DNA from: Branchiostoma lanceolatum
Lineage: Eukaryota > Chordata > Leptocardii > Amphioxiformes > Branchiostomatidae
Length of the DNA: 64,000 nt
Assembly (NCBI RefSeq): GCF_035083965.1
Contig: NC_089727.1
Location: 2,733,501 to 2,797,500 of the forward strand
Direction of reading: 5' to 3'
Below are positions 906-52,069 of this stretch, one piece after another. The notes under the pieces were generated by a model. The model was not told where the DNA came from, ran no database searches, and saw only the letters and a list, made by a program, of their open reading frames with translations. Position numbers and translations under genes: made by a program. Within the stretch, counting starts at the first letter, position 1. The number at the start of each line of letters is the position of its first letter.

Positions 906-3900
906 ATGCTGTCCCGACCCGTCCTCATCACTGCTGCCGGCATCACGAGCTGCCTGCTGTTCCTCTACACAGTCAGCAAGACTGGGCACATCCCAGGTCA
1001 GGTCCAGATAGATACTCTTTACCTCAGGGAAAATGGAGGTACCGTATTGTAATCAGTTTGCGTGTTTGTTTGCTTGCTTGTTTGTCCAGGTTTGCAGTTA
1101 TGCAGCCTGCCAGGATTTAAGGCCAAAATGGTGTAATAGGATACTTGGAGAATTGGAAGTCTAGCTTGGCTTCTTGGGTCCAATGTTGTAGATGGACAGG
1201 AAATGATTGCGTGCAATCGTAGCATAGATTGATGTCTCATGGCTGCACCCACACAGTAATGTCAGGTCATTAGGTGTACCCATTTAGAGCTTGTCTCAAT
1301 AATGTTCAGCATATTGTCTCTAAAAAAAAATTTTGGATTATCATTAATACAATGTAACCCAGCCAGGGTTACATGGAAAAAGGGTCTTACATCTAACATC
1401 TGGCAGTATGCAACATAGAATGGCATCACAAAGAAATATCCTGCATTTGCTTGCAAATGTTTGCTGTCTTTCTAATCTTCCAGTCAATGTATCACGTGTC
1501 AGTTTAACTTTGTTTTAATGTACAGAACATGTTATTCAGTTCTTGGGCTGCCAAATGTTCTTTTGATAAAAAGCCCAAAGCTTGTAACTGTCGGATTTCT
1601 TTCTGATCATTCTCTTTTCTGTTTTTCTCCCTAGGCACCGTTGACCCACCCATCCTGGGTGCCCTTACAGACAGCCCTAAGCACGTGTTAGTAACCGGAG
1701 CAGCGGGCTTCATAGGGTTCCACCTGACCAGGGCTCTGCTGGACAAGCCTCACGCTAGAGTCTTTGGGGTGGACAACTTTGACAAGTGGTCTGACTTGAA
1801 GCTGAAGCAGGTGGGTGGTGCTGCCATTAATAGATCTTAACTGTCTTGGAATGGAACTCTCTACCATATACAGCCACCTGAGGAAATAGGATTATCCACA
1901 CACTACTAGTACTACCTCTTGGGCGTGTGACCCCAACAAAGGGGTGTTGTCCAGTATACTACCAGAACTAGAACCAGATAGATACAATATACTGTGAATC
2001 ATGAAATGTTTGCAGCGGTTGTATGTTTGCCTTTTCACTGTGACTTCTTCGTAGTTAAAAGTAGATAGTATCTGTATAATTATATACCTAAAATATACCA
2101 TTGGGAACTTGATAACATAGTACCTGACTAGATTTGATTTGATATCATGAAATTTTACTGTAGGGAACTTTTAAACACTGATCTAGACAATCTCTGTGTC
2201 TTTAACCTATTAAAGGACAGAGCTCATTAACTGTATGAATAAGGGTTCTGTTAGAGGATGCAGGAGACATCTGTGAAGAGGAGTATCTGACTATACTGTA
2301 AAAACTTAGTAAGAGTTTAAAACACTGATCCAAACAATCTCTGTATCTTTTCCTCAGGACAGAGCTCATGAGCTGTGTGAATACAGGGCTCTGTAAGATG
2401 ATGCAGAGACATCTGTGAAGAGGACTAAACTGTACCATATTGAGAAACTAAGTACGAGACCCAGTCTAAAACACTGACCCAAACAATCTCTGGGTCCTTA
2501 CCCCAGGACAGGGCCCATGAGCTGTATGAATACGGAGTTGCCCTTGAGGATGGAGACATCTGCTACCAGGAGTACCTGACTAAACTGTACCTTACAAAAC
2601 AAGTACAAAACGAGACAGTACAATGTGTATAATAGACTCACTCAGTGTAAAACACTGAAACAATCTCTGTATCTTTACCCCCAGGACAGAGCCCATGAGC
2701 TGTATGAATACGGAGTTGCCCTTGAGGACGGGGACATCTGTGACCTTGAGTACCTGACAGACCTCTTCATCAGGGAGAACTTCACCCATGTGGTGCACCT
2801 GGCGGGGAGGTCGGGGGTCAGAGGTCAGGACCTGGACGCGGCCGCCATCATGGAGAACAATGTGGAGTGCTTTGTGACCTTGCTGGAGGTCGTGAAAAAC
2901 TATAAAGTGAGTTATCATGCAGAATAGAAAACAATCTTTGATTTCCAACACACATGGTCTAGTGGTATTGTAAAATCTATTCTGGCATGCCACAACCAAA
3001 ACCTACAAGTTAGCCAAAACACTTAAGATTGACCAGCTTTAGCTATACATGTATGTTAGCTGAGTAGAATAAATAAAAGATTATCAAAACACTCTTAAAC
3101 TTAATTTAAAGGTTAACATTGTATTTATTTATAAAATTCTTTTACAAAGATAATCAAAGCTTTGCTTGATACATTTTGTGTTTAGTTGTTTCAAACATAC
3201 AATTGCTGTAAGGAAAAGCTGCTCGGAACGTTGAATACTCAATGTTATTGTTTGGTTTTTCAAGTATTAAAAGTACTAGAAACAGCCATGATAACACATC
3301 CTTTCTCTTTCAATTCTTCCTACTTTCAGAACATCAAGCTCGTTTACGCCTCGTCAGCGTCGGTCTACGGAAGCTCTTCCCCGCTTCCCTTCTCCCCCTC
3401 TCACCCTGTAATCCAACCTGACACCATAGAGGGCCTTGCCAAGCGGACAGTAGAGCTCCTAGCACAGGGGTACTGTAAGGAGTTTGGGGTGCAGCAGGTG
3501 GGGCTATGTTTTGGCAGGTCACTTCATGAATTCAGTACATTGTATTAACATCAGGACTGCATGGGTCTCATATTTTGGTACCAACAGCAGAAGAAAGCTC
3601 TTAGTTCTCAAGTTTTGTAACACACAAATGACAAGTTTTTAAGAATAAGATATTTAACCATTAAGCATTTATTTGTAACACACAAATGACAAGTTTTGAA
3701 GAATGAGATATTTAACCTTTAGCTGGTATGTTAAGATTTTGTTCAACGGATTTGTTAAATCATAGACAGATTTTGAACAGTATAGCAGAAGCATGGTTGT
3801 CTATTGTAGAATAGCTTTTTTGGCTATTTTGCCTGCTTCATGTTTGTTTTTTTTGTTGCTAAAACCGAGAAACTGGATGGATGTGGCTTTAACGATGCGT

Positions 3901-6226
3901 ACAATGTAGGTGGGTCTGCGTTTCTTCACGGTGTACGGGCCGTGGGGGCGCGAGGACTCGGCGCTGAACACCTTCACACAGCAGCTGCTGGAGGGAGAAG
4001 TTCTGCAGGTGTTCCACACCAGGTGGGTATCGGGACGTTTTGGCACCTGGACAGTTTAGCACAAGGCCTATAGGACGATGTTGTGGTTATGAAAGATGTT
4101 AGAGTTCTACAGGTGGGATCTGGTGGGAGAATATTCCTTTTTTTCTTTGGCATGCTGTAGTGATGTGGCATCGCGGTGGTGGAATGGCAGGGTGTTTGGC
4201 CCAGAACCCAGAAGTCATAGGTTCGAATCCTGACATGCCCCGCTGATGTTGTGCCCTTGGGAAAGACAATTAATATGAATTTCCTCACTTCACTCATGAG
4301 TACCTAGCTTTGATTAGAGATGTCCCTCGGACAGGACATTAAATGCAGGTGCCATGTTTGGGGAGCCACACCTCAAACATTTAAAAGAACCCACCACACT
4401 TATCAGAAAGGACTGGCCAGGGCTGTCTACTGAGGGCCTGTTGCTCTGTGCAGGGACGGAGATCTGAACTTCATGATGTAAGATTAAAGAATATTTATAA
4501 GCTTAAAATGACAAATTAACTTACTTCATTTTAGTTTTGACAGATTTAACAACGAAAATTAACAACATGATCTCCCTATCAATGAGTGGGATGGGGAGGA
4601 ATTAGATTTAGAGCTTGAGACAGCTCTAGAATAGGTGCACCTAACCAAACAATTCATCTGCATAACATGAACCAAAGTAGAATTTCAGAAAAACATTTTG
4701 CATTTATCGGTCTTGTTTTCCAGGGAGGGCCGACCCCTTGAGAGAGACTTCTTGTACGTGGAGGATGCGGTGCGAGGTGTCCTGTCTGCCCTGGACCTCA
4801 GCCCTGCTCACTGTGGACAGGTGTTTAACCTGGCTTCAGGTCAGGCCCAGTCAGCAGTGGACATAGTGGCTCTACTGGAGCAGCAGCTCAATATTCAAGC
4901 TCAGGCCGTGAGTTATTGCTTGTTTAGAGTTAGACAGTACAGAGTGGTGGACATGCTAATTATCTAATACCAGCTCATAAAAGAAGGAGAAATAGTCATG
5001 TCTTTAACAACAACACAAGTATCAGATTTATCAACCTAGGATTTAGTTGTTTGAAAATTCTTTTTTTCTTAGCACTATCGTACAGTAGAACTCATTACCA
5101 CCAAGCACAGTAGAGCATCCTCACTAGATACATGTAGATTTAAACAATGCTTGCAGCTAGATATGCAAAGGTAAGATGTTTTACCGGAGTTATCAGCCAA
5201 GGATTGATGTGTTCAAAAATTCGTATTTTCCTAGAACCAAAGTAGAATGGAACTCGTTGTCATCAAGTACTGTAGGAGCATCCTCACTGAGTAGCTTTAA
5301 AGAACGGTTACAGTCAGATATGCGAAGACTAGGTGTAACAGACCATTCGGTGTAATATGACCAGCTGCTGCCGCGCCGCGTGCCTGCGAAGCTGGTGTGT
5401 TACGCCTAATGGCGGTTGTACCGGCTATATAGATACAGGTACAGAAGATATGACAGGACACCGGCATGCAGGCAGGAAAACAGGTTGTATTCAAATAACC
5501 AAATGACTGTGTCATGTACATGTTCTACTAAGTATGATATGATAGGAATACAAAGTGCTGAAATTTTGTTTTTTCAGGTGAAGGTACTGGCCCCACCCCT
5601 GGAGGTAGTCAGGATGGTAGGAGACGTCCAGTGTTCCCTGAAACAGCTAGGGTTCAGACCCAAGGTATCTCTCCACCAAGGTAGGTAACCTCTCATCATC
5701 AATATCATGAAAGTTAATCTGTGTTGGTAGTAATCATAATACAATGCTTAAGTTTATTCCGACACTAAGATATTCACGGATCAAATTTTCAAGGACCACT
5801 GTCGCCTTCTTCAGGATCAATAAAGTGTAGACCAGTGGTTAGTGACCCTGCCTCTGGACCAAGGAGTCGTGAGTTTGAAATTCCTGAGCTGTGTCGCTCA
5901 CTCCACATGCACGCTGCTGAAAAGGGTAGCAATCCTTTGGATGGAACGTTAAGCCGTGGTCCACTGTTCATTGTTCTTGTCAAAAAGAGCTAGAGGAATT
6001 TCCCCCGTACAATAAACCTTTTAGATATTGTTCATACCAAAGATTGTATCCCTTTCATTGTCTCAGTGAAGAAAAATGGTAATCTTTGAAGTAAGATGGT
6101 TTGTTCTTTGCACCTGTGTGTTTTAGGTGTGCAAGAGTTTGTCCAGTGGGCCCTGACGTATCGAGAACAACAGAACAGGAGCCAGAAGTCCAAGCAGGCC
6201 AGCCTGGCTCAGAAGTTCAGAGACAG
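906..6226 (+). CDS. Exon block encoding the NAD(P)-binding epimerase domain
   Basis: Exon 2 carries the Rossmann loop TGAAGFIG (residues 65-72) followed by FGVDNF. Exon 3 gives [17 protein letters not shown], the family's adenine-ribose region. Exon 4 has YASSASVYG, keeping the active-site Ser. Exon 5 reads [14 protein letters not shown], typical of UDP-glucuronate epimerases. Exon 6 has [13 protein letters not shown]. Exons 7-8 give [18 protein letters not shown], the usual C-terminal end of the domain. In these enzymes YxxxK supplies the catalytic Tyr and Lys. Here residues 211-215 read EGLAK, so Lys215 remains but the Tyr position is Glu211. Either activity is lost or the chemistry has changed. 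The Met at 906 is preferred because it directly follows the splice acceptor and opens a hydrophobic anchor. Confidence 0.82.
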
Positions 6227-8745: not shown

Positions 8746-11700
8746 GTGTTTATGTGTTTGTGTGTGTATGTGTGTGTGTTTGTGTATGTGTTTGTGTGTG
8801 TATGTGTGTGTTTGTGTGTGTGTGTGAATTGCCTGAACCTTTTCCGTCTCTTTCACTTCAGATTTCTGAAGTATGCCGAGAAGAACAACATTCCGCTGCC
8901 TGACATGACCAGAGGACCGTTCCACTTCTACCCGGGGGTGGACTCACCCGGAGGGGACATCATTAAAGCCACCAGTCTGAAGAACAACACAGGAGTAAGA
9001 GGAATCATCGTTATCATGGTGTTCCCCCAGATGACCCTGCGAGGGGCAAAGTAGGGGGGGGGGGGGGGTTGTCCCATGCTCTATCCCTGAATCGATCTCA
9101 AATATGCTTCAGCATTGATTACTGTACATGCATTTAAGTTCACATAGTTTTAATTTCACGGCAGGGAGAAAATGGAGTGTTTGCGGTGGTTCTACACATA
9201 AAAGAAGCCATCACGCTTATTGACCAAAAAAAGATAGGGGTGACCAGGTGTGCTTGGCTAAAAACACAAGCCGTAGTATTGTGCTAGTTAATGCTTCACC
9301 TGATTTGGGGATGACAAAAGATGTATATGATGTCAGGTGTCGATGATGCTTATCATTTAAACAATTTTTAGGAAGTCAACTGGCAGTAGAATGCTTATGA
9401 TTAAGCTAGGTTTGAGTCACAAATCAAATTCTTCACAACCAAAGCTATAGACTGGGGCCATCCAGAAATGCTTGGATGTTGATATTTTCAGTCCTCAGGC
9501 TGAAGGTTGATGAAACTGCTGTCTTTTTCACCCAGGCCATGAAGAAACGCTGCCTGGAGGCTGAGCAGTGCGTCGCCTTCAGCTCTGCCGGGATGCTGAA
9601 GAGTCGAGTCAAACCTCCCCATCTGTGGCAGCAGGCAGCCTTCTCCATCCCCGACCAGGGCATCTATGTAGCAGGTAAGGGTTTCTCCATCTATGTAGCA
9701 GGTAAGGCCTTCTCCAGCCCCGACCAGGGCATCTATGTAGCAGGTAAGGCCTTCTCCAGCCCCGACCAGGGCATCTATGTAGCAGGTAAGGCCTTCTCCA
9801 GCCCCAACCAGGGCATCTATGTAGCAGGTAAGGCCTTCTCCAGCCCCGAACAGGGCATCTATGTAGCAGGTAAGGCCTTCTCCAGCCCCGAACAGGGCAT
9901 CTATGTAGCAGGTAAGGCCTTCTCCAGCCCCGAACAGGGCATCTATGCAGCAGGCAGCCTTCTCCAGCCCCGACTAGGGCATCTATGTAGCAGGTAAGAC
10001 CTTCTCCATCTATGTAGCAGGTAAAGGTTTCTCCATCTATGTAGCAGGTAAGGGTTTCTCCAGCCCCGACCAGGGCATCTATGTAGCAGGTAAGGCCTTC
10101 TCCATCTATGTAGCAGGTAAGGGTTTCTCCATCTATGTAGCAGGTAAGGGTTTCTTTATCTATCTAGGAGGTAAGAGTTTCTCCATTCCTGACCAGGGCA
10201 TCTATGTAGCAGGAAGCCTTCTCCAGCCCCAACCAGGGCATCTATGTAGCAGGTAAGGCCTTCTCCAGCCCCGACCAGGGCATTTATGTAGCAGGTAAGG
10301 CCTTCTCCAGCCCTGACCATGGCATCTATGTAGCAGGTAAGGCCTTTTCCAGCCCCGACCAGGGCATCTATGTAGCAGGTAAGGCCTTATCCAGCCCCGA
10401 CCAGGGCATCTATGTAGCAGGTAAGGCCTTCTCCAGCCCCAACCAGGGCATCTATGTAGCAGGTAAGGCCTTTTCCAGCCCCGACCAGCTCAGGGCATCT
10501 ATGTAGCAGGTAAGGCCTTCTCCAGCCCCGACCAGGGCATCTATCTAGCAGGTAAGGCCTTCTCAAGACCCGACCAGGGCATCTATGTAGCAGGTAAGGC
10601 CTTCTCCAGCCCCGACCAGGGCATCTATGTAGCAGGTAAGGCCTTCTCCAGCCCCGACCAGCTCAGGGCATCTATGTAGCAGGTAAGGCCTTCTCCAGCC
10701 CCGACCAGGGCATCTATGTAGCAGGTAAGGCCTTCTCCAGCCCCGACCAGGGCATCTATGTAGCAGGTAAGGCCTTCTCCAGCCCCGACCAGGGCATCTA
10801 TATAGCAGGTAAGGCCTTCTCCAGCCCCAACCAGGGCATCTATGTAGCAGGTAAGGCCTTCTCCAGCCCCAACCAGCTCAGGGCATCTATGTAGCAGGTA
10901 AGGCCTTCTCCAGACCCGACCAAGGCATCTATCTAGCAGGTAAGGCCTTCTCCAGCCCCAACCAGGGCATCTATGTAGCAGGTAAGGCCTTCTCCAGCCC
11001 CGACAAGGGCATCTATGTAGCAGGTAAGGCCTTCTCCAGCCCCGACCAGGGCATCTATGTAGCAGGTAAGGCCTTCTCCAGCCCCGACCAGGGCATCTAT
11101 GTAGCAGGTAAGGCCTTCTCCAGCCCCGACCAGGGCATCTATGTAGCAGGTAAGGCCTTCTCCAGCCCCGACCAGGGCATCTATGTAGCAGGTAAGGCCT
11201 TCTCCACCTATGTATACATGTAGCAGCTAAGAGTTTCTCCATCTATGTAGCAGGTATAAGAATTTCTCCATGTATGTAGCAGGTACTAAACATTTCTCCA
11301 TCTATGAGCAGGTAAGGGTTTCTCCATCTATGTAGCAGCTAAGAGTTTCTCCATCTATGTAGCAGGTATAAGAATTTCTCCATGTATGTTGCAGGTACTA
11401 AGCATTTCTCCATCTATGAGCAGGTAAGGGTTTCTCCATCTTTGTAGCAGGCAAGAGTTTCTCCATCTATGTAGCAGGTACATGTAAGTGTTTCTCCATC
11501 TATGTAACAGGTAAGGGTTTCTCCAGCCCTGTCCAGGGCATCTATGTAGCAGGTAAGGGTTTCCCCATCTATGTAGTAGGTAAGAGTTTCTCCATCTATG
11601 TAGCAGTTAAGATTTTCTCCATGTACATGTATGTAGCAGGTAAGGGTATGTATATGTACATGTGCATTTTCTATGTGTCTGTGTTTGTGTGTCTAAGTGT

Positions 11701-14700
11701 GCCTTGTACTCTATGAAAGCGGTGACGATGATGATGATGTACTCTATGAATTGTCTATCAATTTTATTAGGCTAACAGAAATAGGTGTGCTACATACATG
11801 TACATGTAGACTTCCCCTCTAATGTAAGTTGCCATACTTCATGAAATAGTAGAAAAGTTGTGGGATACAGTGTGACATTTCTCTGCTTTATTTAACAAGT
11901 TTAAGGTGTTACATATTGTACAAATGTACCAGCCTAATACAATGTACATGTGTGATAAAGGTGATATAAACATGACTTGTGAACAAAAATCTGAACACTC
12001 TAAATCTAACTATGAAAATTGTCATTAGCTTCTCAATGTAGAGAAATTTGACACATAATACCATTTAGTATCACTAACACCAGAATAAGTTTTGTTTTTA
12101 CAAAGTTTAAGCTACAGCTAAAGTACCAGCCATTGATATACTCAAAAGAGAGGGTCAAGTTGATAGATGTTTCACAGTGACTTATTAGTACAAAATACAT
12201 TTATTTTGTGGCTAACAGTTATAGTAAAACAGCTGATTAAGCTACACTTATAGCCATCGGCCAAGTTAGTATAACACACGCTGATTAAGCTCTGTCCATC
12301 ATCCATATTTCATGATAATAAGAATCCCAAACTAGCTGAACTCTGTCTATAGTTGATAGCTTCCTTCAGCTGAGCTTAGTCTAGAGTCTAGTCCATGACA
12401 AGGACAGAATATGTACAGATTCTATTTACAGTGTACAAATAATGTACTAATTTCCCTGCCCTTTTTAAACAGCAGAATGATCATTGGGATTATAGTTTAG
12501 CATCCCAACCTAAGAGTCCATGCTACCAATCTGTAAGAAGAGCCATATGTTTTACAAGCACTGGCTTAATATATTCAAACTGGAGAGTAGAACTTTGAAA
12601 GGGTATTTTGGAACCTGCAGTAGATGTACAAGCACATTTAAAAAGCTGAAATTTTTAGATTGAAATGCTACATGTACATGTAAACTCATGTAAAAATTAG
12701 GAAACTTTAAGAGCTGTCTTATGGACCTGCCAAATGATCAGGCATCAGCATCATGATGCTACATATGGTCATGACCACTGGTTGTTACAGTAACCGTAGT
12801 GTCTGGTGCACCACCGGTTGTTACAGTAGCCATGGTGTCTGGTGCACCATCGGTTGTTACAGTAACCGTGGTGTCTGGTGCACCATCGGTTGTTACAGTA
12901 ACCGTAGTGTCTGGTGCACCACCGGTTGTTACAGTAGCCCTGGTGTCTGGTGCACCATCGGTTGTTACAGTAACCGTGGTGTCTGGTGCACCTCTGGTTG
13001 TTACAGTAGCCCTGGTGTCTGTGCTGTTGGATACAACACCAGGGTCTGGGCCAACAGAGCGATTCCTGGTCCACCTCTTCCAACAGATTGTGAAAACGAT
13101 GCTACCAATGAGGACAGTGCCGGCTGCTGCACCAGCAATAGTGGCAATGGGAACAGACACTGGGAGATTGGGATGAGATTCAGGTTCTTCTGAAGGTGGA
13201 GAATGGACAAGAACAGGGGAAGAGAAGGTAGAGGCAGCAGGTACAGGTTGGTAGAAAGTGGGAGAGGATACAAGATTGCCATTGCTTGTGAGATGGGTTG
13301 AAGAACCGGTGGTACCAACAGAAAGAGGTGAAGCATTTGTGGTAGTCTTGGGCAGATTCAAGAGGACATCAACAGAGAGTGTGGAAGATGCATAGCCAGC
13401 AGGATTCCCTGCTGTACAGATGTACTGCCCTGCATCTGCTGCAGTGACATTAGTTATGGCGATGGTACCATTCACATCCACAGTAACCCTCCCTCCTGAC
13501 TCAGCATTAGCATTCAGTCCAGATGGGAGGGTGACTGTGATGTCTGGTTGAGGTATACCAGAAGCTTCACAGACCAAATGGAGCTCGAGAGTGTTCCCCT
13601 GCACCAATGTGTTATTGTTGGCCCTCTGAAAGCTTACAATGGTTGGCTCTTCACAGTTCAGATCCTCAGGACTGATATCTTTCAGCTTTTGCTCTTGAAA
13701 CTTGGCTGGTTGGGAACAAGTTATCTGATTTTCAAATGATTGAGATCCGCTCATCTTTAACCTGAACGGAAGCATGCTACAGTTACACTGCCAGGGGTTG
13801 CTGGAAACTCTTATGCTAGAGATTGCTGATAGCATGGAATAGGCAGTAGAGGGAAGTGTCACCATTCGGTTGGAGTTCAAAGTCAACTGTAGGAGCTTTG
13901 GTAGATCTGAGAACATACTTGGTTGGATGGTTGTTATTTTGTTGGAGTGCAGGCGCAGTATTTCGAGCTTGGGCAGGTTTGAAAATGCACCAGACTGAAT
14001 GGTTTTTATCTTGTTGTTGTTCAGGTACAACTGTTGGAGCAGTGAGATGTTTGAGAATGCACCAGGCAGAATGTTAGTTATTTGGTTGTAGTGCAGAGAC
14101 AACGATCGCAGCTGTGGTAGGTTTGAAAATGTGCTGGGCTGAATGTTAATTATCTTGTTTCTAGACAGGGCCAGTGTTTGTAGCCGTGGTAGGTTTGAGA
14201 ATGTATCAGACTGAATGTTACTTATCTGATTAGAGGACAACATCAACCGTCGGAGCTGTAGTAGATTTAAAAATGCATGAGGCTGAATTGTTGTTATCTG
14301 GTTAAAGCTCAGCAGCAACTGTCGAAGGTGGGATAAATTTGAGAATACACCGGTCTGGATGGTTGTTATCTGGTTGTAGTCCAGGCACAACCGTTGGAGC
14401 TGTGGCAGGTGTGAAATTGTACCTGGTAGAATGTTCGTTATCTTGTTTCTGGACAGGGTCAACATTTGAAGCTGTAGTAAGTTCGAGAATGTACGGGGCA
14501 GAATGTAAGTTATATGGTTTTGGGACAGATCTAGGTCTACCAAACTCCTGTATCTTACGAAAGCAGATTGACTCATGGTTGTGATGTTATTGCTTCTTAA
14601 GTAAAGGTGGGTGACACCTATTGGCAGATACTGAGGAACAGTGCTGAGGCCTTTACTGGTGCAGCTGCAGGATGATAAACAGCTGCTGCTGCAGGCTGTG

Positions 14701-16434
14701 CTTGGTCCAATTTCTGTCAGGACAATGAGTAGAAGAACCAGCAGTCTCTTCAGCCTGCCAGACATTCTATCTGCTAGAGAAGGAGAAGAATATACGAGGG
14801 TGAGTCAATATGTAGTGCAATTTGTTTTATAACAAGCTCAATTTTTCATCAAATGAGTTGAAGTATGGCGCAAAAGTTAAGTCACTTATCTTTGTGAGAC
14901 TGAAATATGTAAATTTTGTCGTTTGGATTTTTATGAGCAATTGAGTTGCTTTCCAGACGACCAAACCCAGGGAAGATCAGTTCCTCTAAGATCTGACCAA
15001 CTTGAAATTACTGTAGGAAGATGAAATCACACCTGTGTAGTGATAAATGTCTCTATCTACATTTGTATTAGGTTACATGACAATTTTGATTTCTGAACTC
15101 CCAACAGCCCTTGCCAAACTGTTGTCTAATGTAGCATTAATGCCAGAAATACATATCCAGCACTAATGCTTGGTTAGTGCTCACTGCCATGGTAATTTCA
15201 TGGTCATTATGGCTGTCCAAATACCAGTCCCTCAATGTCCTACCAGCCATGCCTTCGACCAAGGCTTGAACCAATTAGTTGGCATCTTTCCAGCATTAGT
15301 GCTTTCTGCCACGGCCTTTCGTCATGCTTGACCTATACATTAGCACCCTGCAACAACTGGGGTTTTTGACAAGGGTGGACTGTAGTTAGGGGGCAGAGGG
15401 TTAATTTGGTGTGACCACCCCCACTGGCACCAGCCAGGGGAAAGGGTTTCCACTTCCCCTTCAGTCCTAGAAGACTGGGTGATAAATGATGATTAATGGA
15501 CAGGGGTGTATGCCGGCATTAATGCTCTGTTCCAAAGGGAGCAGAGGGAATCCAGCATTAATGCCCAATGTGCTCCGGTAAGGAGCGCGTAGTGCGGCAT
15601 TAATGCTACATTAGACAACAGTTTGGCAAGGGAGTGCCTCCTTTACATCTGCTAGGATGGAGTGAGGTGTGGTATTACAGTTGTTTTCTTAGTCAAATAT
15701 ATTGTGATGTGTTGATTAAAGCTTTTTCAGACTCCTTTCCCATTGACTCAGAGAAACAAAACTTGACACATTTATTATGTCTTTAAAGGCCAAGAACTGT
15801 GGTTTTGTTTCTCTTAGTTTATGGGAAAGTAGTCTACCTTTAATCAGCGCAATGCATAATTAGGACCCTGACAACTGCTCTGGATTCGAGTCATACCCCC
15901 CTCCACTCCAGCAATGAAAAAAGAAGATTCTGAAGTGATAGGATTTCAAAGATGAAAATAAGCATGAAACTTATAGAGATTGCATGTTGATGCATGTGCA
16001 GTTTCAGTCTCCTATAATAGCTAAGGCGGGTCAGGGAAATTTTGATTGCACGTTGATTGAACCTCCTTTGCTCTTTGCTTCTGATGGACCTCCAAGGATG
16101 TGTTCACCTTTGAGTCAGTCGCTCATAAAAATGTGATCAACAAATTGAGATGTTTCAGTCTCAAGAAGATATACACACGTCTGCCTTTTCCTTTGTGCCA
16201 ATATCAACTCATTTGACGAAGAGATGAACTTGTTATCAAACAAATTGCATTACATATTGACTCACCCTTGTAAATGTACATGTAAACTGAAAGCAAACTC
16301 TAAAAATAAGTGAAAGCAAACTCTTAAAATAACTGCCCCTAAAATGTGTTTAAGGCCAGGTACTTGTTTATTTTTATATTCTGGGCTAGGAGTTTTCATT
16401 ACAACAGTACTACTAGTTAGAACTTTATCCCAAA

Positions 16435-19400: not shown

Positions 19401-22400
19401 ATGGCATCACTAACACCAGACTAAGTTTTGGTTTTTCAAACTTTAAGCTACCGTTAAAGTATCAGCCATGCATGAGTAACAAAAAAATACATTTATGTAG
19501 AGACTAACAATTATAGCAGCTGATGAAACTGTTCAACAGCCAATCTAATAATAATGCACACTGGTTAAGCTCTGTCTATCAGACAAGTTAATGATAACAC
19601 ACTGGTTGAGCTCTGACCATAACCCAAGTTAATAATAACACTCTGATTAAACTCTGTCCATCGGCCAAGTTAATACCGATACAGCTTCAAGTACCAGCAA
19701 TTGGTATACACTGAAGAGTGAGGTGTTTCCCTCAGTACAATCATGGCAAAATACATTTATAGCAAAACAGCTGATTAAGTTCTGTCTATCTGTGTTGAAG
19801 CTAAATTGTAGTATAGTAACACACACACTGATCAAACTCTGTTCATCAACCAAGACGTTAATAATAACACACACTGTTAAAACTTTGTCCATCACTAAGT
19901 TAATGATAACACACACTGGTTAAGCTCTGTCAGACAAGTTAATAACAACACACACTGGTTAAACTCTATCCATCAGACCAGTTTATGATAACACACACTG
20001 ATTAAACTATGTCCATCACTAGGTTAATAATAAACTGATGAAGCTCTGTCTATCAGCAAAGTTGATGATAATGCATGATAATTAAGCTCTTTCCATTACT
20101 CAGTTGATAATAACACACACTGTTAATAATAACTCACTCTGGTTACGATCTGTCCATCAGCCAGGTTGATACTTACACACACTGGTTAAGCTCTGTCCTT
20201 GACCCAAGTTAATCAAAATCCAAACTGACTAAACTCTGCCTGTAGCTAACAGCTTCCTTCAGCTCGGTATAGATTAGTATACACTACAGTGCATGATAAG
20301 GACAGAATATGTACACTCAGGTTCAATCAAGGAGGTTAAAATATGATCTTATTTTAATATCTTTGGTTCAGTTTACATTGTAGAAATAATGTAATGAGAA
20401 ATTCCTCTGCCCTTTTACACAATGCAGTGAACATGGGAATGACAGCTCAGCATTACAACCTATACATGCATGTAAGTCCATCTCAGCAATGCAATCCACA
20501 AGACTACAGTTACACTGGAGTAATTGTGCAGAGCCTGCAGAACATTTTAGAAAGCTATTAAGTTTTCAGATTGTGATACTTCATGTAGCCACACCTGCAA
20601 AGTAGGAAACATTAGAAGGTGCCTGAGTCTTATGGACCTGCCAAAACCTCTGAGTCAGGCATCTACATCATGATGCTGCATCTGGTCATGACCACCGGTT
20701 GTTACAGTACCCGTGGTGTCTGGTGCACCACCGGTTGTTACAGTACCCGTGGTGTCTGGTGCACCACCGGTTATTACAGTACCCGTGGTGTCTGTGTTGC
20801 TGTATACAGCACCAAAGTGTGGGACAACAGAGCGATTCCTGGTCCACCTCTTCCAACAGATTGTGAGAACGATGCAACCAATGAGGACAGTGCCGGCTGC
20901 TGCACCAGCGATAGTGCCAATGAGAACAGAAATGGGGAGATTGGGATGAGATTCAGATTCTTCTGAAGGTAGAGAATTGACAAGAACAGGCACAGAGAAA
21001 GTGGGAGAAAATACAAGCTTTTCTGAGGGTATAGAGCCAACAGAGACAGTTTGAGACAAAGTGGGGCTAGATTTAAGGTGTTCTGAAGGTGTAGAGCCAA
21101 CAGGTCCAGGCTCGGAGAAAGTGGGAGAAGAAGAAAGGTTGCCATTGCCAGTGGGATGGGTTGAAGTACCTGTGGTAGCCACAGAAAGAGGTGAAGCATT
21201 TGTGGTAGTCGTGGGCAGATTCAAGTGGACATCAACGGAGAGTGTGGCAGAAGCAGAGCCAGTAGGATTTGTTGCAATACAGACGTACTGCCCAGCATCT
21301 GCTGCAGTAACATTAGTTACGGTGACAGCACCATTCACTCCCACAGTCACCCTCCCACCTGACTGAGCATTAGCATTCAGTCCAGATGGAAGGGTGACTG
21401 TGATGTCTGGTTGAGGTATACCTGAAGCTTCACAGACCAAACGGAGCTCGAGTGTGCCCTGCGCCAATGAGATATTGTCAACCATCTGAAAGCTTACAAT
21501 GGTTGGCTCCTCACAGTTCAGATCCTCAGGATTGATATATTTCAGCTTTCGTCCTTGTAACTGGGCTGGTTGAGAACAAGTTATCTGATTTTCAAACGAT
21601 TTAGACCCTCTCATCTTTAACCTGAAGGGAAGCATAGTACAGTTACACTGCCAAGGGTTGTTGGAAATTCTTATGCTAGTGATTGCTGACAGCATGGAAT
21701 AGGCAGTGGAGGGAAGTGTCACCATTCGGTTTGAGTTCAAGGTCAACTGTAGAAGCTGTGGTAGATCTGAGAACATACGTATACTTGGCTGGATGGTTGT
21801 TATCTTGTTGTTGTCAAGGCGCAACTGTTGGAGCTTGGGTAGGTTTGAGATTGCACCGGGCTGAATGTTTTTTATCTTGTTGTTGTTCAGGTGCAACTGT
21901 CGGAGATGTGGTAGATTTGAAAATGCACCAACATGGATGGTAGTTATTTGGTTAGAGGAAAGGTGCAACTCTCGGAGAAGGGGTAGGTTTGAAAATGCAC
22001 CTGCCTGAATGTTACTTATCTGGTTGTAGTCAAGGCGCAAATGTTGGAGCTGTGGTATGTTTGAGAACATACCAGGCTTAATGGTTTTTATCTTGTTGTT
22101 GTTCAGGTACAACCTTCGGAGCTGGGGCAGGTTTGAGACCATACCATGCTGAATGATTGTTATCTTGTTATTGTTCAGGTGCAACTGTTGGAGCTTGGGT
22201 AGGTTTGAGAATGTACCGAACTGAATGTTATTCATCTGGTTGTTGTACAAGTACAACCTTTGGAGCTGTGGTAGGTTTGAGAACATACCAGGCTGAATGA
22301 TAGTTATCTGGTTGGAGTCAAGGCGTAACTGTTGGAGCCGTGGTAGGTTTAAAACTGCACCAGGCTGAATGTTGGTTATCTTATTGTCGTTCAGGTGCAA

Positions 22401-25400
22401 CCATTCGAGCTTTGGTAGGTTTGAGAAAGAACCAGACTGAATGTTCATTAGCTTGTTTCCGGTCAGATGCAACTCTTGAAGCTGTTGTAGAAAGTAGAAT
22501 GTACTGGGCTGAATGTTAGTTATTTGGTTTCTGGATAGATATAGTTTTATCAAACTTCTGTACCTGAGGAAAGCAGATTGACTCAAGGTTGTGATCTTAT
22601 TGCTTCTTAAGTTAAGACTAGTGATACTTTTTGGCAGATTCTGAGGAACACTGCTGAGACCTCTATTGCTGCAGTCGCAGGATGATGGTGTACAGCTGCA
22701 CCCAGCTGCAGTCGGTCCAGTTCCTGTTAGGATGATGAGCAGAAGAACCAGCAGTCTCTTCAGCATTTTGTCTGCTAGAGAAGGAAATGAATGTAAAATG
22801 CAACTGAAAGCAAACTCATGTTACTTAGCTGTAACTTAAAATGTCATCAAAATGTCATCATCATGTACTGCAGCTTCTTCATCTGCATCATTGGAAATGT
22901 GTTGCAGTTAAAATCATATCTCCGTGAAATGTTTTGATTATGCAAATAACATCACATTTCCATATATGTATGCTTGGTCATGAACACCTTTAACTGACTT
23001 ACACATGTCACAATGTGAACAGTCCAGTCATTTACCACTTAGAAGAATTGTATGGCACTTTTGCATTAATTATGCCAATTAGGAATTTATTTGCATAATT
23101 GATTGTCTATTAATGTTCCACCTGCCATAAACTACAGTTGTTACATGTATTTGAGCCCTATAATGGAAAACACTGCAAATATAGATTTTCCTCATTAATT
23201 ATGCAAATTCAGTTTCAATTTGTATGATTTGCATTTCATTGTGTACATCTCTGTCCAAGCTACCTGCATACTAAATATCATGGAAATCTGTTGTTCCTTT
23301 CTTCCGTTATTCTCCTTGAAAGATTTTAACAAAAACTGCAGTTCCAGAGCAAGCTGCTAAGGGGCCCAAACCTTTACCACTTACACACCAAAAACATGAT
23401 ATCAATTTTTCATGGAGATAATCAGTCATATGGCAATGATACATATTTAAATCCTAGCACAACTAGTCCCTTCAAGACAAGCTTTTTTAAAGCACTTTTT
23501 GGGGATTTAGTGTAATCATTGCAACCGGTTAGAATTTTATCTCAAAACCTGTGCATAGGGCAAAAAAAGCTGAGTGAGTAAAATTTTGTATATTTCAATT
23601 GTCATTGAGTGTCATACAATAGCACAATGATTGTTTGTGTGCTTATTGCTAAAAGAAAACTACAGAATAATGTGCATACCATAGCATAAAGACTGATCTG
23701 GAACACCCATATTGAACATTATTAAGGCCCAGGCATGACATAAAAGAATGTATAGCATGTATAGTTTTGCAAACATGCAAGCCATTCATTTGAAGGCAAC
23801 CAGTCCTATTAAGCATTATATCCGATTTCTCGAAACCTGTGTTTAGAGAAATAACCAAAAGAAAGTTGAGTGATCGATATGAGAAAAATTTTGTATTAAA
23901 AAACTTACCCCTACAGTGTCATACAGCATAGGGACCATTTGTGATGCATGTTGCTACGAGAAAACAACACATACTATGTATTCTAGCAAACATGCAAGCT
24001 ATTCCTTCTTTTACAGTAAGCAGTCCTGCATAGTTTATTACCTTATTGTGTTCTTCACAGTCGAGTGCTCTGTACAACAAGGATTCTCTGTGCTTCCTCT
24101 AAGTTGTGTTGGTCTGTCAAGGATCCCTTTTCTGATGTAGCCAGTCCTGTATACCTTATTACGTTCCTCACAGTTGAGTGCTGAGCAGAACAAAGATTCT
24201 CCTTGGTGCTTCTCTTAAAATCTCCCACTTTTCAACCACTGTCTCCCAAGCTATAAAAAAAAAAGTTATTAGCCTGGCATCTGTCTTTTCAATTGGTAGT
24301 GGCTAACTTTTACTGCTATGTACTTGTATTATACTTCTTGTATTACAGCCATAGTTTGTGTAATATAAACTGTCTCTCACTGTCTAGGGCTTTTAGTTCT
24401 AAAAAAAATAATAACTTTATTGCACAACAATTGTACAAGGTACAAAGTATGGCATTCACTGGTACATAGATAACATTCTATTAGGCTAACCAATCTATCT
24501 AATACAATATTATGTAGTAGTCTATCTTATACAATAGGGTGAAGTAGTCTATCTTATACAATATGGTGTAGTAGTATGGGATGATAGTGGGATTTTACAA
24601 TCATTGGGGGACATGACGATAGGACAAGTTTACATTGGACTAACAGGGCACGTTAACTTTGCACCGATGAAGACAGGAGGCAGGTTATCAAAACAGCGGT
24701 AGAGAAGAAAAATAAGCTTACGGACTTAAGAAAACTTGTGAAAATGCACCAGAGTTTGAGAAAATTTGGTGTCCTCAAACGAAAAATTGTCAAAACATCT
24801 GATTCTGTTCACATTATTTTTATATAATCATGTGGAAGCCCATGGAATACAAGGAGAAGCCAGTGGGATACCATGAAATATAGACTGGTCCGGAACACCC
24901 CCATCATACATGTATGTTATAACGGCCCAGGTACATGTATAACACACATGTAAACAACTTATACTACGTATTTCTAGTAAACATGCAAGTTCTTCACTCT
25001 TCTAAGGTAACCAGTCCTGCATACCTTATTGTGTTCTTCACAGTTGAGAGTAGAATAAGGATTCTATGTGCTTCTCCCAATTTGTGTTGGTCTGTCGAGG
25101 AGCACTTTGACAACTTATGGGTCTCCAACGCTGAAAAATCATAGTAAGTAAACCCAATGTCAAGATCTGAATGAAAATTAGTTTTGTACACAATGGTGGG
25201 GGTGTGTTAGCCTAACACCTGTATTATCAATGGGTCGCAGCTTATTTTTTACTGAAATGACTAGTTGTGATAAGGACAGGTAAGGCCCTAATTTTTTCAG
25301 TGAGTATGATCTCAAAGCAGTTTAGGTCACAAAATGAACAGTCGAATCTTCCATTGGTTGTGACAGAGAAAACAGACGCTGTCGGTATGTACATGTACAG

Positions 25401-28400
25401 TATTTTCATGTTCCTGGTACGAGGAACATTCCTCTTTTCAGCATGTATACTGAACAGTGGACCACTGCTTAACATCCCGTCTTAAGGACCATAACCCTTT
25501 CCAGTAGCAATGCACATTGGCTGAGTGCCACAGCCAGAATTTGAACTCGCAGCCTCTTAGTCCGGAGGCAGGGTCGCCAACCACTGTACTTTGCATGCAA
25601 CTTTCTCTCTAGATTTTTCTTTTTGTAAGTTTGAGAGTCTGATAGATATAAGAGAAACACTTACTGAGTTCTGCTGAACTGTATCCAGTCACAAGCACTC
25701 GTAGATTGTCTTTATATGTCAGTTCAAACAGTCTAAGACACCGCAAAAAAGCCAGGGAAGTCTTGATTGCAGCTGTGGTGCCGGGAGTAGCCAACTGTAC
25801 AACTGCGTGGTCCGTTCCCCGACTATTATATGTTCACACAGTTCCTGCTCCCTCAAGTGGGTAGAATTTAATTTAGCTTCCTGTGATTCTCCTGGTTCAA
25901 AAGATTAAGATTCTTGAAGAGATGAAAGTCAAGTTCACCCTGATGTTGACATTCCAAGTAAGCTGCGAAGTTAAGGTAGGTAATTGTTGCCAAGAAACAA
26001 TGTGGCTTTTTCATCAGAGTACAAAGCCGCACGATTTGCCAAGAAACAATGTGGCTTTTTCACCAGAGTACAGAGCCGCACGATTTGTAACTGATCAACT
26101 TTCTTGCTTGAAATAATCCTGATTGCAGAGAAAGAAAGGAAAAAAATTACCACATTCACAAAACTCTCTGTAGTTTTGGTTCACTTTTCTGGCTCTGATT
26201 AACAATTGCATCATATCTTTTATGAAGGTTTGAATAGTATTGCTTCTCTCACTAATGTAGCATTTGAGCATTTGATCCAATAAAAAGAAAACTGTTTGAG
26301 AAAATTACTTTTGGTCTGAACATATGAAACCTGTTGGATGAAAATTTACCAAGTATTCAGATGAGCTCATGCTAATGTTGTTTCTACTGCTGGTAGCTTT
26401 TGAGCTTTAGAGTTGTTGAGGCCTGTTGTTATGTGTTGCCGATAGCAATATTATGATAGTTGACTCTTGTTTCTTTCCTGTTTGGAAAGCGTCTTTGGCC
26501 ACACCAATTTACTTTCTTGGTTCTCTCGAACCTCCATTTTACATTACATCCAAGGGGATGTGCCTAATAAACTAACTCATTTTTTATTTGAGTAGTGTAA
26601 GGAAATAGGGTTAAAGTGCCTTTCCAAAGGGCACAACTTTGGTCCCCGTGAAGGAATTGAACCCAGAACCTTTATATACTACATGTATGTCAACAACCCT
26701 GACCATGAAGACTACCTGGCCACCAACGTACTCTAACTTCTGTAAAGAGGAATGAGCAATCCACTGTCTCTGTGACGTTCCGTTATGCAGATACATGTAG
26801 AACACGTGACTAAGGGAACATTGGATCATACGTTGCAGAAAGTATGTGGCACCCCCAGTCTCTTTCAAGTAACCTCTAACTTATTGTTACAGATGTGGAC
26901 ATGTGTGCGGCAGACCTGCATGACTGCGATGAGCATGCTGTCTGCAACAAGACTGGCCCCGCCCAGTTCAGATGCACCTGTAGGGACGGTTACTATGGCA
27001 ACGGACAAACCTGCCTCCCCAGGTAACTATCGGCAACTAGTACATGTTGGACTGTATATCAATGACCAGGTGGTCCTTATGTAGGGGTGGTCACATGTAC
27101 AGGTTTGACTGAGTATATCAATGGCCAGGTGCTCCTTATGAAGAGGTGGTCAGGTTTGACTGTATGGCAATGGCCAGGAGGTCTTCATGTAGAGGTGGTC
27201 ACTAGTACAGGTTTGACTGTATATCAATGGCTAGGTGGTCCTTATGTAGAGGTGGTCACTTGTACAGGTTTGACTGTATATCAATGGTCAGGAGGTCCTT
27301 TTGCAGAGGTGCAGGGTCACCAGTACAGATTTTTACTGTATTTGCCCCCCTCCAGGTACGAGGCAGATGAGCCCCTTTTGGTGGGCCTTATGTAGAGGTG
27401 GCCACTTGTACAGGTTTGACTGTATTTGCCCCCTCCCCCCTCCAGGTACAAGGTAGACGAGCCCCTGCCTCTGGATGTGAAGCGAGACGGCCTCATCAGT
27501 GTCTTCAACGGTATCGACCTGCAGGGCATGAAGACTTCTGCTCAGTTTGTCTTCTTCCAGGTGGGGAAGTTTGACATGGTATTGGATCTTACCTTCATTG
27601 TGAACTTTAAGGTCTAAGGTGTGATTTGGCACATGTACAGCACTATTCCTTCCTTCCTTCATTCATGCATTCATCCATCAACCCATTCATTCATTCATTC
27701 AGTGAGTGAGTTGTGCCATGGATTTTTGCGTTTCGGCGCATGCGCGCCGGAACGCATTGTCCTGGCTTTTACCTTCAAGCAAGGGACCTTCAAGGAAGGA
27801 ACCAGGGAAGCTTGGTTCAACACTGTGTCGCACACAATAAGACCTTATATGGCAATACGTTCTCAAATCCTTGTATAGCCGTTGCCTTATATGGCAAGAG
27901 AGCACGAAAATGCAGGCAGGCTAGATTTGCATGTGACACAGGACGGCGACCGCATGTAACTGTTCGGAAATATCATTGCATTGTGGTTTCGGACTTTGAT
28001 ATCCTGAAAAATGACCATATTACATCTATTCCACAAGATTGCAGAAGAAAAAAAATGATTTCGTCAAGAAAACGACCAAAAATCGGCATAAATGATACCA
28101 TATAGTGAGGTTATAGCATTACGTCCAGAGTGAACAGTTACGTACCGCAGCTTGGCCGATCTGGCAACGCGAAGCACTTCGGACCCAGAAGATCCGGGTT
28201 CGTCTCCGTGCGTGGATTTTTTTTTCTTTTTAGATATTGAATATCAAAAATATATATTGATATTATATTAATCTATCAATATCATATTTATGAATATCAT
28301 TTTTTTTCATTAATAAATAAAGAAATATTTTATATTTGTTATTTTTAAATATTCATTTAATATATACAAGGCCTTTGTCTTATGAACAGGACTTCATAGA

Positions 28401-31400
28401 TTCCAAACCCGGCATTCGAATTTTTCTGTTCATTGTAATGGAAAATACCGTGCAGCGGCTCCTATGCGCGGTAAGATGATTCTTGCAAAACACTCGCCAC
28501 TAAACTTCTATCCCCGATGTAAACAGAGGCTCTTGATGTTGTTTGCAAAACAGCGATTCTTTGTTACAGTAGCAAATGCTCCATTGTTCAGTATCGACTT
28601 CATTCAGACAACACGGACGTGGAAAGTGGCGCCCCTCGGCACAAAACTATGGGAATTTTCATGAATTTTAGCAAAATTACCCAGGAAAATAAGGAAGAAA
28701 TGTTGTAAATGCGGAAACCAGAATAATACGGATGAGGTAGCTGTTGATTTGTTTGACATTTGGTAGTCATTTTAGATAGAACCTTAGCTGTTATGAACTT
28801 CTATTTCACTTAATTACCATAGTTCTGATGATTCAATGGTGCTTTTTCAAATTTTATGTTTTATTGCGTGCCATGTACATAATTACATTGATAGCTTTTA
28901 TAATGAGCCTATTATACATTTTACAAATAAGTACAAGTTGTAGGCCAAGACCAGCTTTTTCAAAAGCACTTAAGTTAAGTGACGTAACTTCAAAATTGCT
29001 TTCCCCAATCTGCCTTTCTCTATTAAAACAGTACTCATTTCCCAAAATGACAATTTTTCTTATAGACTGAACAGCCCTTGAGTGACTTCCTCTGGCAGAT
29101 TTTACTTCAAGTAAAGGGAAAAGACAATTCACACTTATAAACGTAGCCGAAACGCCAGCTTTTTTTAAAAGCTCTTGTTTCTTATCTGAAGTAATGTAGT
29201 AGCCCTTCTGTAAACATCAGACTTGAAAGTCAGCTGACTTCTTGTACCTCACTTGAGCTTATACTATATGTTGCTTAGCCTCCATAGCAGGCTCTAACTG
29301 GCCTTTTTGGGGGGCTAGATTATACACTTTTTGCAGCCAGCCCGTAACCATCAGCCACCCTGTTACTATCTTGCAGTTCACAGCAGCTCACAGCATATAT
29401 TATTACAAATCTTACACAATTCTTGTGTCTGTTTCCATTAGATACATTAAAATCAAAATACAAGGAGCAAAACATATGCAATTGAGTGTTCTTGAATCTT
29501 AAAATGTGTTTGTCGTGCTCAGGGTATGGATTCCTTGGGAGGAGACTTCATGGTCGCCGAGCAGTTCCGGGGACAACCCAAACAGCTGCAGTCCATCTGC
29601 ATGGACATCCCCCAGTGTATCGGTGAGATTTATTTTTGTGTCTATCGGTTCAGCATGTACAACGTACATGTACATGCCAGGGTTGCCGAACTAGGCGGAG
29701 GCTATTACTAAAGGGCGAACCCATGTGTGATCATAGGACTGTAGGTTTTTGAACCACTCACACCGGGAAGGACCCCTACTCTTTTCTGGCCCCTAATTTC
29801 GGTGAGACTTATTCTTCTTCTTCTTAAAGTGTTAGAAAAGTAATGACTCCGATGACCACGTACACGTAGGTTCTCCTCCCTGAAACATGTCCAATAATGT
29901 CATGAGATTTCATGGCTTTCTGTTAAGCCTCTGTCATACATAGCCGACCATGGCCTCCCAACCTTCCCTATCTAAACCTCCTTGCCTATGCAAGCTGTAA
30001 TGGTGATGTTAAAGATTTTGATATCTCAGTATACAGTAGAACATTGTTACTGTCAGAGCGATTCAGGGTCCTATCAAGCAGCTAATTCGAAACAGATGGG
30101 TGCGGCCAAGCCGGCGTCCCGGCTAGCTCACTTCTGACTTGAGCGTCTTGTTAGCAGCCATGATAAGTGTACTCCTCAGTACAAACTTGCTGTATGTTGA
30201 TGTTGATCTGAAAATAAAGTGACTTCAGCTACAACAAAAGAAGAACCCCCCCTAAAAAAACTTGCTGTGCTACGCTGTAATTCCCAGGGTTCAACAGTAA
30301 CGGGATGCTGAAGATGTCCATATTCATGTCATATTCATGTCATATTCATGTCACAACAAATTGATTGATTGGTTGATTGATTGATTAGTTGATTGATTGA
30401 TTGTCCTGTACCTGCCAGGGTTCAACAGTAACGGGATGCTGAAGATGTCCATGAGTCGTCCCTCCGGGTGGATAAGGTGGAGTAACAAGGACTCCGACGG
30501 TCTCTACCTGCTGGGTACGTTTGTTATCTCCATGAAAAGTGGAGATATCGTTTTGGGTGTCTGTGTGTGTGTGTGTCTGTCCATGTGTCTGCAAGGACTC
30601 TGACGGCCTCTACCTCCTGAATACGTTTATTACAGTAAATGCAGAAATGTTTTTATGTTCGGTTGTGGTGGTTTTATGTTTGCTGTTTTTGCGGCGACCG
30701 TTTCACCGCAAACGTTAAGCCACCGTAAACATTTTTGTCCAATACTGTAGCGGTATGTGACAAAAGCTGCCGCGAACTTAAAACCACTGCAAACACTTCA
30801 ATTTTGGCTCAGCACGAAATAAAAACCATGCAAACTTAAATGCATATTTTACAGTATCTCCATGAAAAGTGGAGATATTGTTTTGGGTGTGTCTGTGTGT
30901 GTCTCAGAATTGATGATGATGATGATGATGAATGGTTTATTAAAAATAAATCCCTCGCAGCCAATTCGGCTGAATTGCGGATTATACAATGTTTAAAATT
31001 CATTTCTGTATAACATGGCAACATTATTACATAAACACATGGCAACATTATTATATAAAAGTCCGTGATAAACAGACAATTGGTTTTGCATTAGCAGAAT
31101 CTGAAATATACTTCTAGTATTTTTTTTTTTTTACAAAATGAGCATACACTTAAAAGCCTCGGTAATATATAAGAAGTTAAGCATTAAGAAGTCGAACAAT
31201 GTAGGATATGGGAGAGTTCTTAAGTCTGTCTGTTCTGCATTTGATAGGTCGATATTTGTCCCTGTTTCTAGTGGGTCTATCGTGACAGTCAGATCCCTTT
31301 GGTGGCAGCATTGATGAACTATGTGCTTCTAACTGAGTTCCGAACTTCAGACACAGTTTCTGCCTGCGGTCTGAGAGCAATGGCAGGTTTAAGTCTTTCC

Positions 31401-51600: not shown

Positions 51601-52021
51601 ATGCACCAGGATGAATGTTAGTTATCTTGTTGTTTGCCAGGTCTAAATCTTGCAGCTGCGTCACGTTTGAGAATGTAAATGGTTGAATGTTACTTATCTG
51701 GTTAGAGCGCAGGTTCAAAACATGGAGCACGGGAAGACATGAGAATGTTTCCTCCTTTACTGTGAATATTCTATTCGCGCTGAAAACTAGTTCTGTAAGT
51801 TTCTTGTACCTTAATACGTCAGACTGGTTTAAGGCTGTGATGACATTGCCCTGCAAATAAAGGGTAGTGATGTTTGTAGGTAGATCTTGGGGCACACGAC
51901 TGAGTCCTTTCTTTTGGCAGTGGCAGATCGATGAACAGCTGCTGCTGCAGGCTGCGGTTGTTGCAGTTTCCCTCAAAATGATGAGCAGAAGGATCAGTGG
52001 TGTACTCCGCTTGTTGGGCAT
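48677..52021 (-). CDS. LRR-Ig transmembrane receptor 3 with a YxN-repeat tail, 1114 aa
   Basis: The start is placed at 52021, directly after TTTTTACAG|AAA. An in-frame Met 30 bases upstream lies before that acceptor and gives a poor signal peptide. Domains: signal peptide (STPLILLLIILRETATTA); LRRNT (CSSSCSSICHCQKKG); about 19 leucine-rich repeats to ~510; LRRCT from NPWECDC (~517); one Ig domain (~570-662, VCEASG and DAGLYIC); Ser/Thr linker; TM helix (~690-712, IGVSIFAMFFFISSLAFALC). The cytoplasmic tail (~762-1114) is dominated by a 17-residue repeat SQSVYENDNEEEIVAAT. Ectodomain and Ig resemble the genes at 12759 and 20655, but the tail is unrelated. Tyr-x-Asn is the Grb2 SH2-binding consensus, so tyrosine-phosphorylation signalling is inferred. 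Confidence 0.9.
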   Translation of the reverse strand: MPNKRSTPLILLLIILRETATTAACSSSCSSICHCQKKGLSRVPQDLPTNITTLYLQGNVITALNQSDVLRYKKLTELVFSANRIFTVKEETFSCLPVLHVLNLRSNQISNIQPFTFSNVTQLQDLDLANNKITNIHPGAFSNLQQLLSLRLSSNQIAYIYPRTFLNLPRLEELYLGKNKITNIQAGTSSVPSQLKRLRLDSNQISNIQSGAFSNLPQLQELYLKNNRITSIQSGALSNLPQLQDLYLEYNRITSILPGTVSNLSQLEVLGLGSNQITNITPGTFSNLPHLQELHLKHNKITKIKPGVFSNLPQLQELDLENNTISSIQPGAFSNLPQLEYLFLGNNKITSIQPGAFSNLPHLEGLHLEHNKIINIEPGEFSNLQQLYGLYMNYNNISSIHPGAFTNLPQLEYLYLENNKITSIQPCTFSNLPNLEDLRLKHNKITNIEPGALSNLPQLCKLGLQQNQITNIQSGTFSNLPLLQYLYLQDNKITSIHPGSFSNLTKLSSLVLKDNPWECDCRMVGIWKKMNKSNDQDLFSKIEMTCKGPISLHGKLIRHLNPMHLICTKPRIVRFERNNGNILVLGRPFHLVCEASGVPQPDITVTLPSGLNATIESGGRVTVGVNGTITITNVTAADAGLYICIGVNPGGSTSTTLFVDVEMTTSVWSPFTSSPMSTSSMGNTASNVHIYIGVSIFAMFFFISSLAFALCYVLRTNRVRLNPAPASVRALESVQVHKPLAGQEQANTMYMRDGDSTAGQQTHIYENDNEVKEADTSHPVYENDNEGEAALSQSVYENDNEEEVVATNSQSVYENDNEEEIVAATSQSVYENDNEEEIVAATSQSVYENDNEEEVVATNSQSAYENDNEEEIVAATSQSVYENDNEEEIVAALSQSVYENDNEEEVVATNSQSVYENDNEEEIVAAASQSVYENDNEEQIVATTSQSVYENDDEMEEVCNNTPQVIHENNDEEGALSNCPSNLLSDSDDEKANDSVAFQVVNEMHNEGEAICDSSRVPYENENEEGAVSHVSSQLIYDNEDEKSAFSTCQSTNHNNNGKAESAFSPVIYGKDFHIIIENEYEEGVASAASDIIYGNEDEKAVSSTCQSIYKNNE
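49140..49735 (-). repeat. 51-base in-frame repeats encoding the YENDNEEE tail
   Basis: Twelve fairly uniform YEND units plus decayed ones downstream (IHEN, YENE, YDNE, YGNE, YKNN). Endings cycle VVATN, IVAAT, IVAA(T/L), suggesting a three-unit (153-base) higher-order repeat. The complementary strand is also open, an artefact of the period. Confidence 0.92.
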
Positions 52022-52069
52022 TTTCTGTAAAAACAGATTAAATCTTATCACGAAGTTTTATATTATTGT

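Follow-up and report, generated by a model that had tools for sequence, protein, structure and literature searches.

Mirages, tandem arrays in which an exon edge is repeated together with its splice signal, are described in amphioxus from Adh3 and from two globin genes, where they occur on both the acceptor and the donor side (PMC3087553). According to that source, the mirage units measure 10-72 nt in Adh3 and about 150-160 nt in the globins, and two haplotypes of BflGb6 differ, one with 6 mirage units and the other with 3. The arrays undergo concerted evolution, with somatic instability at Adh3, and the Adh3 data together with RT-PCR of the globins suggest that regular splicing is unaffected by them (PMC3087553). 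For PGBD5, the repeat number is given as 2 to 7 in one assembly and 3 to 6 in another, and troponin C is also cited as a mirage gene (PMC3902484). Compared with this set, which comprises Adh3, the globins BflGb6 and BflGb9, PGBD5 and troponin C (PMC3087553, PMC3902484), the locus described here carries a far longer array, with 51 units as opposed to the 6 and 3 reported for BflGb6 and the 2 to 7 reported for PGBD5, and most of its donors are intact. It looks like a new and large example of a type of structure already described from lancelet genes, an assignment to the mirage class based on the sequence features of one haplotype.

Two further systems show a partial likeness. In the Rogers model and the potato RdRp case (PMC4974935), short AGGT-containing copies likewise stand in tandem with a splice signal in each. 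There, as reported, the new intron spans exonic copies, whereas those of our array set out from a donor that was already there and, on the reading preferred here, are contained in an intron that already existed. A resemblance also exists to alternative tandem 5' splice sites, as treated in PMC6783452, where donors compete at a single exon end, two of them there in contrast to the 45 candidates found here. We consider it probable that the array is a donor-side mirage, that is, a minisatellite that arose by duplication of an exon edge and is passive, with the donor at 9675 mostly used. The evidence counted for this reading consists of the anatomy of the array, the small share of usable donors (7 of 45), the internal turnover, an acceptor-side array in the same gene, the finding that local copies are no commoner at splice sites than at random positions, and the published precedents. 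Among the three options offered by the first-pass annotation, a minisatellite founded on an exon edge is the best fit, and it matches the published amphioxus mirages.

The array is located at an authentic splice site of a predicted gene, the donor of exon 9 in a phase-consistent ten-exon prediction. It lies in a window of 64 kb, by which we mean the whole stretch of DNA that was analysed. Exon edges were picked by eye from open frames, and the gene model, which is a prediction, reaches as far as exon 10. Its exons are as follows.

906-1038, 1635-1810, 2685-2906 and 3330-3497, + strand: predicted exons 1-4, with consistent phases in the joined model
3910-4022, 4724-4907, 5578-5684 and 8862-8994, + strand: predicted exons 5-8, with consistent phases in the joined model
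9536-9674, + strand: exon 9 of the predicted host gene, 139 nt, open in frame, entered in phase 0 and left in phase 1
26893-27022, + strand: predicted exon 10, an EGF module with an EGF_3 match, the acceptor partner in phase 1, with an open joined frame

The ten-exon spliced model (906-27022) has matching phases throughout and encodes 501 residues with no stop. Pfam matches in this sequence include a NAD-dependent epimerase (PF01370, E 1.3e-43, residues 62-307) and EGF_3 (E 5.5e-10, residues 463-499). The acceptor at 26893, named in the first pass as the partner of the array, is backed by its phase and by the EGF_3 match. The predicted product would be a signal-anchored nucleotide-sugar epimerase fused to a CVAF-type segment and an EGF module. 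When scored with approximate splice-site matrices, the authentic donor CAG/GTAAGG at 9674/9675 reaches 11.5 and ranks at the top of the ten model donors. Eight of the nine predicted authentic acceptors score between 5.1 and 10.3 on these matrices; the ninth, in front of exon 5, is weak (-5.2), which makes the exon 5 boundary uncertain. In the region 3481-3960, predicted intron 4 begins with bases (GTGGGGCTATGTTTT) similar to those that open exon 5 (GTGGGTCTGCGTTTC), so that perhaps intron 4 was born by tandem duplication or the boundary is wrong. Predicted intron 9 measures 17.2 kb and contains two LRR-Ig ORFs on the - strand (12759-14804 and 20655-22820), each with a 36-nt tandem repeat near its 3' end, the two repeats having similar consensus sequences. 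The LRR-Ig ORFs in the window suggest a cephalochordate source.

Exon 9 had been labelled as part of a PAN module, a label that found no Pfam match. The exon 9 piece and the ORF 9416-9994 matched no family of any kind (E up to 1), PAN is absent among the 16 Pfam families of the 501-aa model, and Pfam returned nothing for the segment formed by exons 8 and 9 with E up to 10, which leaves the label unproven. Weak matches can be dropped by the HMMER filters, and a distant PAN-like fold may exist in the exon 8 and 9 segment. A PDB sequence search with the same segment (E up to 1) gave a sole match, to the putative glycosyltransferase R655 (9crz, E 0.08).

Both Tandem Repeats Finder and a direct cut into units confirm that an array of about 2 kb is founded on the 3' edge of exon 9 and its donor, as noticed in the first pass; it extends from 9663 to about 11648 on the + strand. 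The founding segment joins the final 36 nt of exon 9 (9639-9674) to the first 6 nt of the intron (GTAAGG), giving a 42-nt unit that straddles the exon-intron boundary, and matches to the exon recur throughout the array. Units were delimited by cutting the region at every fuzzy copy of TCTATGTAGCAGGTAAG, which yields 51 units and one terminal copy. Their lengths are 42 nt (28 units), 27 nt (11 units), 47 nt (three units), 40, 29, 33 and 56 nt (two units each) and 35 nt (one unit), with each of the 56-nt units made of two fused units. The 42- and 27-base units proposed in the first pass are therefore present, but the array is not built throughout in multiples of three, since 10 of the 51 units depart from this rule. 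Tandem Repeats Finder reports a period of 42 at 10158-11206 (24.7 copies, score 1760) and a period of 126, equal to three units, at 9688-11206 (11.9 copies, score 2203). The pattern NAGGT[AG][AT] picks out 45 donor-like sites in the array. The + strand of the window contains 40 copies of the nine-mer CAGGTAAGG, and 39 of them fall within 9632-11660, a clustering far above chance. The AG/GT signals are kept in many copies and not in all, the donor being gone in units 8 and 16, for example. From its 5' to its 3' end, the array comprises the following parts.

9663-9941, + strand: array units 1-7, with seven in-phase, stop-free donors at 9675, 9702, 9744, 9786, 9828, 9870 and 9912
9942-9981, + strand: 40-nt unit with no donor, which reads GCAGGCAGCC as the exon body does and shifts the frame
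9982-10240, + strand: mixed block, units 9-16, of 27-, 42- and 40-nt lengths, with donors in phase 2
9995-9997, + strand: TAA, the first in-frame stop of the exon extended into the array (translation of 9416-9997)
10241-11214, + strand: homogeneous block with recent internal duplications, in which units 17-38 measure 42 or 47 nt and unit 39 measures 35 nt
11215-11648, + strand: degenerate block of mainly 27-nt-type units, ending in the donor at 11640, with several donors lost and a 112-nt block duplicated at 98%

All three phases are represented among the 45 donors (phase 0, 16 donors; phase 1, 17; phase 2, 12). Only seven of them, donors 1-7 (9675-9912), give an open in-phase join to predicted exon 26893-27022. 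The frame breaks at unit 8, the 40-nt unit at 9942, and donor 8 (9994) is in phase 2, its join to 26893 running into a stop. The first in-frame stop is the TAA at 9995-9997, so that every later donor sits beyond a stop; a TAG near 9975, previously taken as the terminator, is out of frame. The statement of about 40 in-register donors given in the first pass is wrong: the array has 45 donor-like sites, 39 of them exact copies of CAGGTAAGG, but with the frame break at 9942 only the seven named above join openly. Likewise, the claim that every unit could end the exon in frame applies to those seven donors and fails for the rest. The 42-nt consensus is open in one frame on the + strand and two on the - strand, and an open repeat frame is not in itself remarkable.

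On the mirage reading, the spliceosome would mainly use the donor at 9675, because the first donor is favoured among equal donors and gives the shortest exon (139 nt). Use of this first donor would leave the array inside intron 9, as an unstable and passive passenger of that intron. Occasional use of donors 2-7 is possible and would give minor isoforms longer by 9 + 14k residues, and donors 8-45, if used, would lead to frameshifted or stopped mRNA. In human K562 cells, when two tandem donors were both made consensus, the first was predominantly used (PMC6783452). The same report describes the earlier evidence on donor choice as conflicting and notes that context can break the first-donor rule, and its two-donor experiments do not extend to 45 donors as in the array. 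In the accessible passages of PMC8724738, the choice between two equal donors is not addressed. With 45 donors, mostly identical, at a single exon, the locus provides a natural test of spliceosomal choice between equivalent sites. Its size also makes it suitable for studying how exon-edge minisatellites are tolerated in animals.

Donors 1-7 are identical CAGGTAAGG nine-mers, all in phase 1 and all open into exon 10, and these properties are compatible with a ladder of alternative 5' splice sites. If all seven were used, the protein would carry 0, 9, 23, 37, 51, 65 or 79 extra residues before the EGF domain, mainly in steps of 14-residue repeats. Gain or loss of units would make the ladder longer or shorter from one individual to another, perhaps even from cell to cell, with the remaining units acting as a reservoir for unequal exchange. 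However, the base differences among the in-frame 42-nt units 2-7 lead to amino-acid replacements (D to N, D to E), which gives no sign of protein-level constraint. The loss of frame from unit 8 onward also speaks against such a ladder, as does the published description of mirages as leaving regular splicing undisturbed (PMC3087553), and we regard it as unlikely. The length-variable module suggested in the first pass could thus be realised by donors 2-7, but not with any number of units.

Joined to exon 10, the remaining 38 of the 45 donors give a frameshift or a stop, and most of them match the authentic nine-mer. A downstream donor used conditionally could therefore produce a long exon containing the TAA at 9995, leading to destruction of the mRNA and to tuning of the output of the gene. 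Such a switch would need exons of up to 2104 nt, though, and it runs counter to the preference for the first site in the two-donor experiments (PMC6783452); the sequence holds no pointer to regulation, and we find this reading quite improbable.

The units themselves record turnover inside the array. A single difference separates the 42-nt unit from the exon end, CCATC in the exon versus CCAG in the longer units, the unit at 10159-10200 being an exception among the latter as it does not show the CCAG change. The exon contains two copies of CATC 15 nt apart, and dropping this interval yields the 27-nt unit with CCATC retained; from these comparisons we infer an order of events leading to the 42- and 27-nt units. 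Both 40-nt units (9942-9981 and 10201-10240) are devoid of a donor and read GCAGGCAGCC or GCAGGAAGCC, resembling the exon body. The best match of the array to the exon includes the first of them (93% over 57 nt), and exchange between exon and array would fit its exon-like sequence. Three units carry five additional bases. The centre of the array contains an exact 159-nt repeat at a shift of 42 and an exact 138-nt repeat at a shift of 383, and the duplicated 112-nt block lies toward its 3' end. Near-identical blocks of this kind inside an array are what unequal exchange would leave. The array thus has a homogenised centre of near-identical units and a diverged 3' end, where units 39-51 are degenerate and several have no donor; the pattern is less clear at the 5' edge.

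Mapping the changes onto the columns of the units gives no firm sign that selection keeps the donors. Among the 28 regular units, no change falls in the nine donor columns (0 of 252), compared to 22 out of 924 in the other 33 columns. An equal absence of change is found in 6373 of 100000 random nine-column sets and in eight of the 42 contiguous nine-column windows; selection on the donors could also yield the pattern seen in the regular units. Over the 27 columns shared by all 51 units, deviations affect 27 of 459 positions in donor columns and 56 of 918 in the others. The corresponding values are 11 of 342 and 24 of 684 for units 1-38, and in units 39-51 the donor columns deviate more often than the others (12 of 117 versus 15 of 234). 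Titration of donors, another role proposed in the first pass, is left unsupported by these counts, as donor columns deviate as often as others and more so in units 39-51.

The same comparison bears on the possibility that the sites, through their complementarity to U1 snRNA, recruit U1 and thereby strengthen the definition of exon 9 or shield the 17-kb intron from early polyadenylation. The presence of 39 copies of CAGGTAAGG in 2 kb at the head of a long intron is in line with this, and so is the distribution of AATAAA/ATTAAA motifs, with nine in intron 9 and none of the nine in the array. Yet donor columns are kept no better than the others across the array, and worse in the 3' units, and the nearest AATAAA/ATTAAA stands at 15715, 4 kb past the array, which makes us consider such a platform very improbable. 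Rfam at the gathering threshold gave no match in 9000-12700. Least credible of all is a self-correcting array in which each AG/GT doubles as an acceptor, so that the extension from a late donor would be removed by a later splice from donor 1 to the late AG and the normal mRNA restored: a pyrimidine stretch does precede CAG/GT in the 27-nt-type units, and 11 of the 45 sites have positive acceptor scores (2.1-4.1, 92nd-97th percentile of + strand AGs, approximate matrix), but the other 34 score below 0, far from the values of the authentic acceptors apart from the ninth.

Returning to the mirage reading, a second exon-edge array is present in the same predicted gene, this time on the acceptor side.

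2165-2610, + strand: second exon-edge array, made of three decoys, each copying the last part of intron 2 and the first part of exon 3

The decoy copies lie upstream of the authentic exon 3 start at 2685, with 80%, 66% and 70% identity, nearest first, and they are also recovered when the 2685 acceptor is used as the query. Tandem Repeats Finder reports this acceptor-side array as a 149-nt repeat at 2214-2533. It is older than the donor array of exon 9. The occurrence of two arrays in one predicted gene, at a donor and at an acceptor, hints that they are by-products of general tandem duplication in this genome and not special devices.

Direct copies spanning the site within 3 kb are found for two of the 19 splice sites of the model. 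As a control, 398 of 3000 random positions have a local copy (800-30000, with the LRR ORFs and the array excluded), and at this rate the binomial chance of at least two in 19 is 0.74. In a control over the whole window, 662 of 3000 random positions have such a copy, and 558 of 2895 when the array is left out. Splice sites are therefore not richer in local copies than random positions, for the 19 sites of this one model. Local duplication is abundant in the window, so that exon edges seem to be bystanders.

A 57-nt tandem array of 4.9 copies at 27036-27311 starts 13 nt past the exon 10 donor and excludes it; we did not count it as an exon-edge array because no copy of the donor at 27023 occurs nearby. 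Elsewhere in the window, a third LRR-Ig ORF of 1126 aa occupies 48677-52057 on the - strand and contains a 51-nt tandem repeat of 10.6 copies (49167-49703). A further ORF on the - strand, at 31177-33366, matches the reverse transcriptase family RVT_1 (E 3.5e-22) and is likely a LINE-type element.
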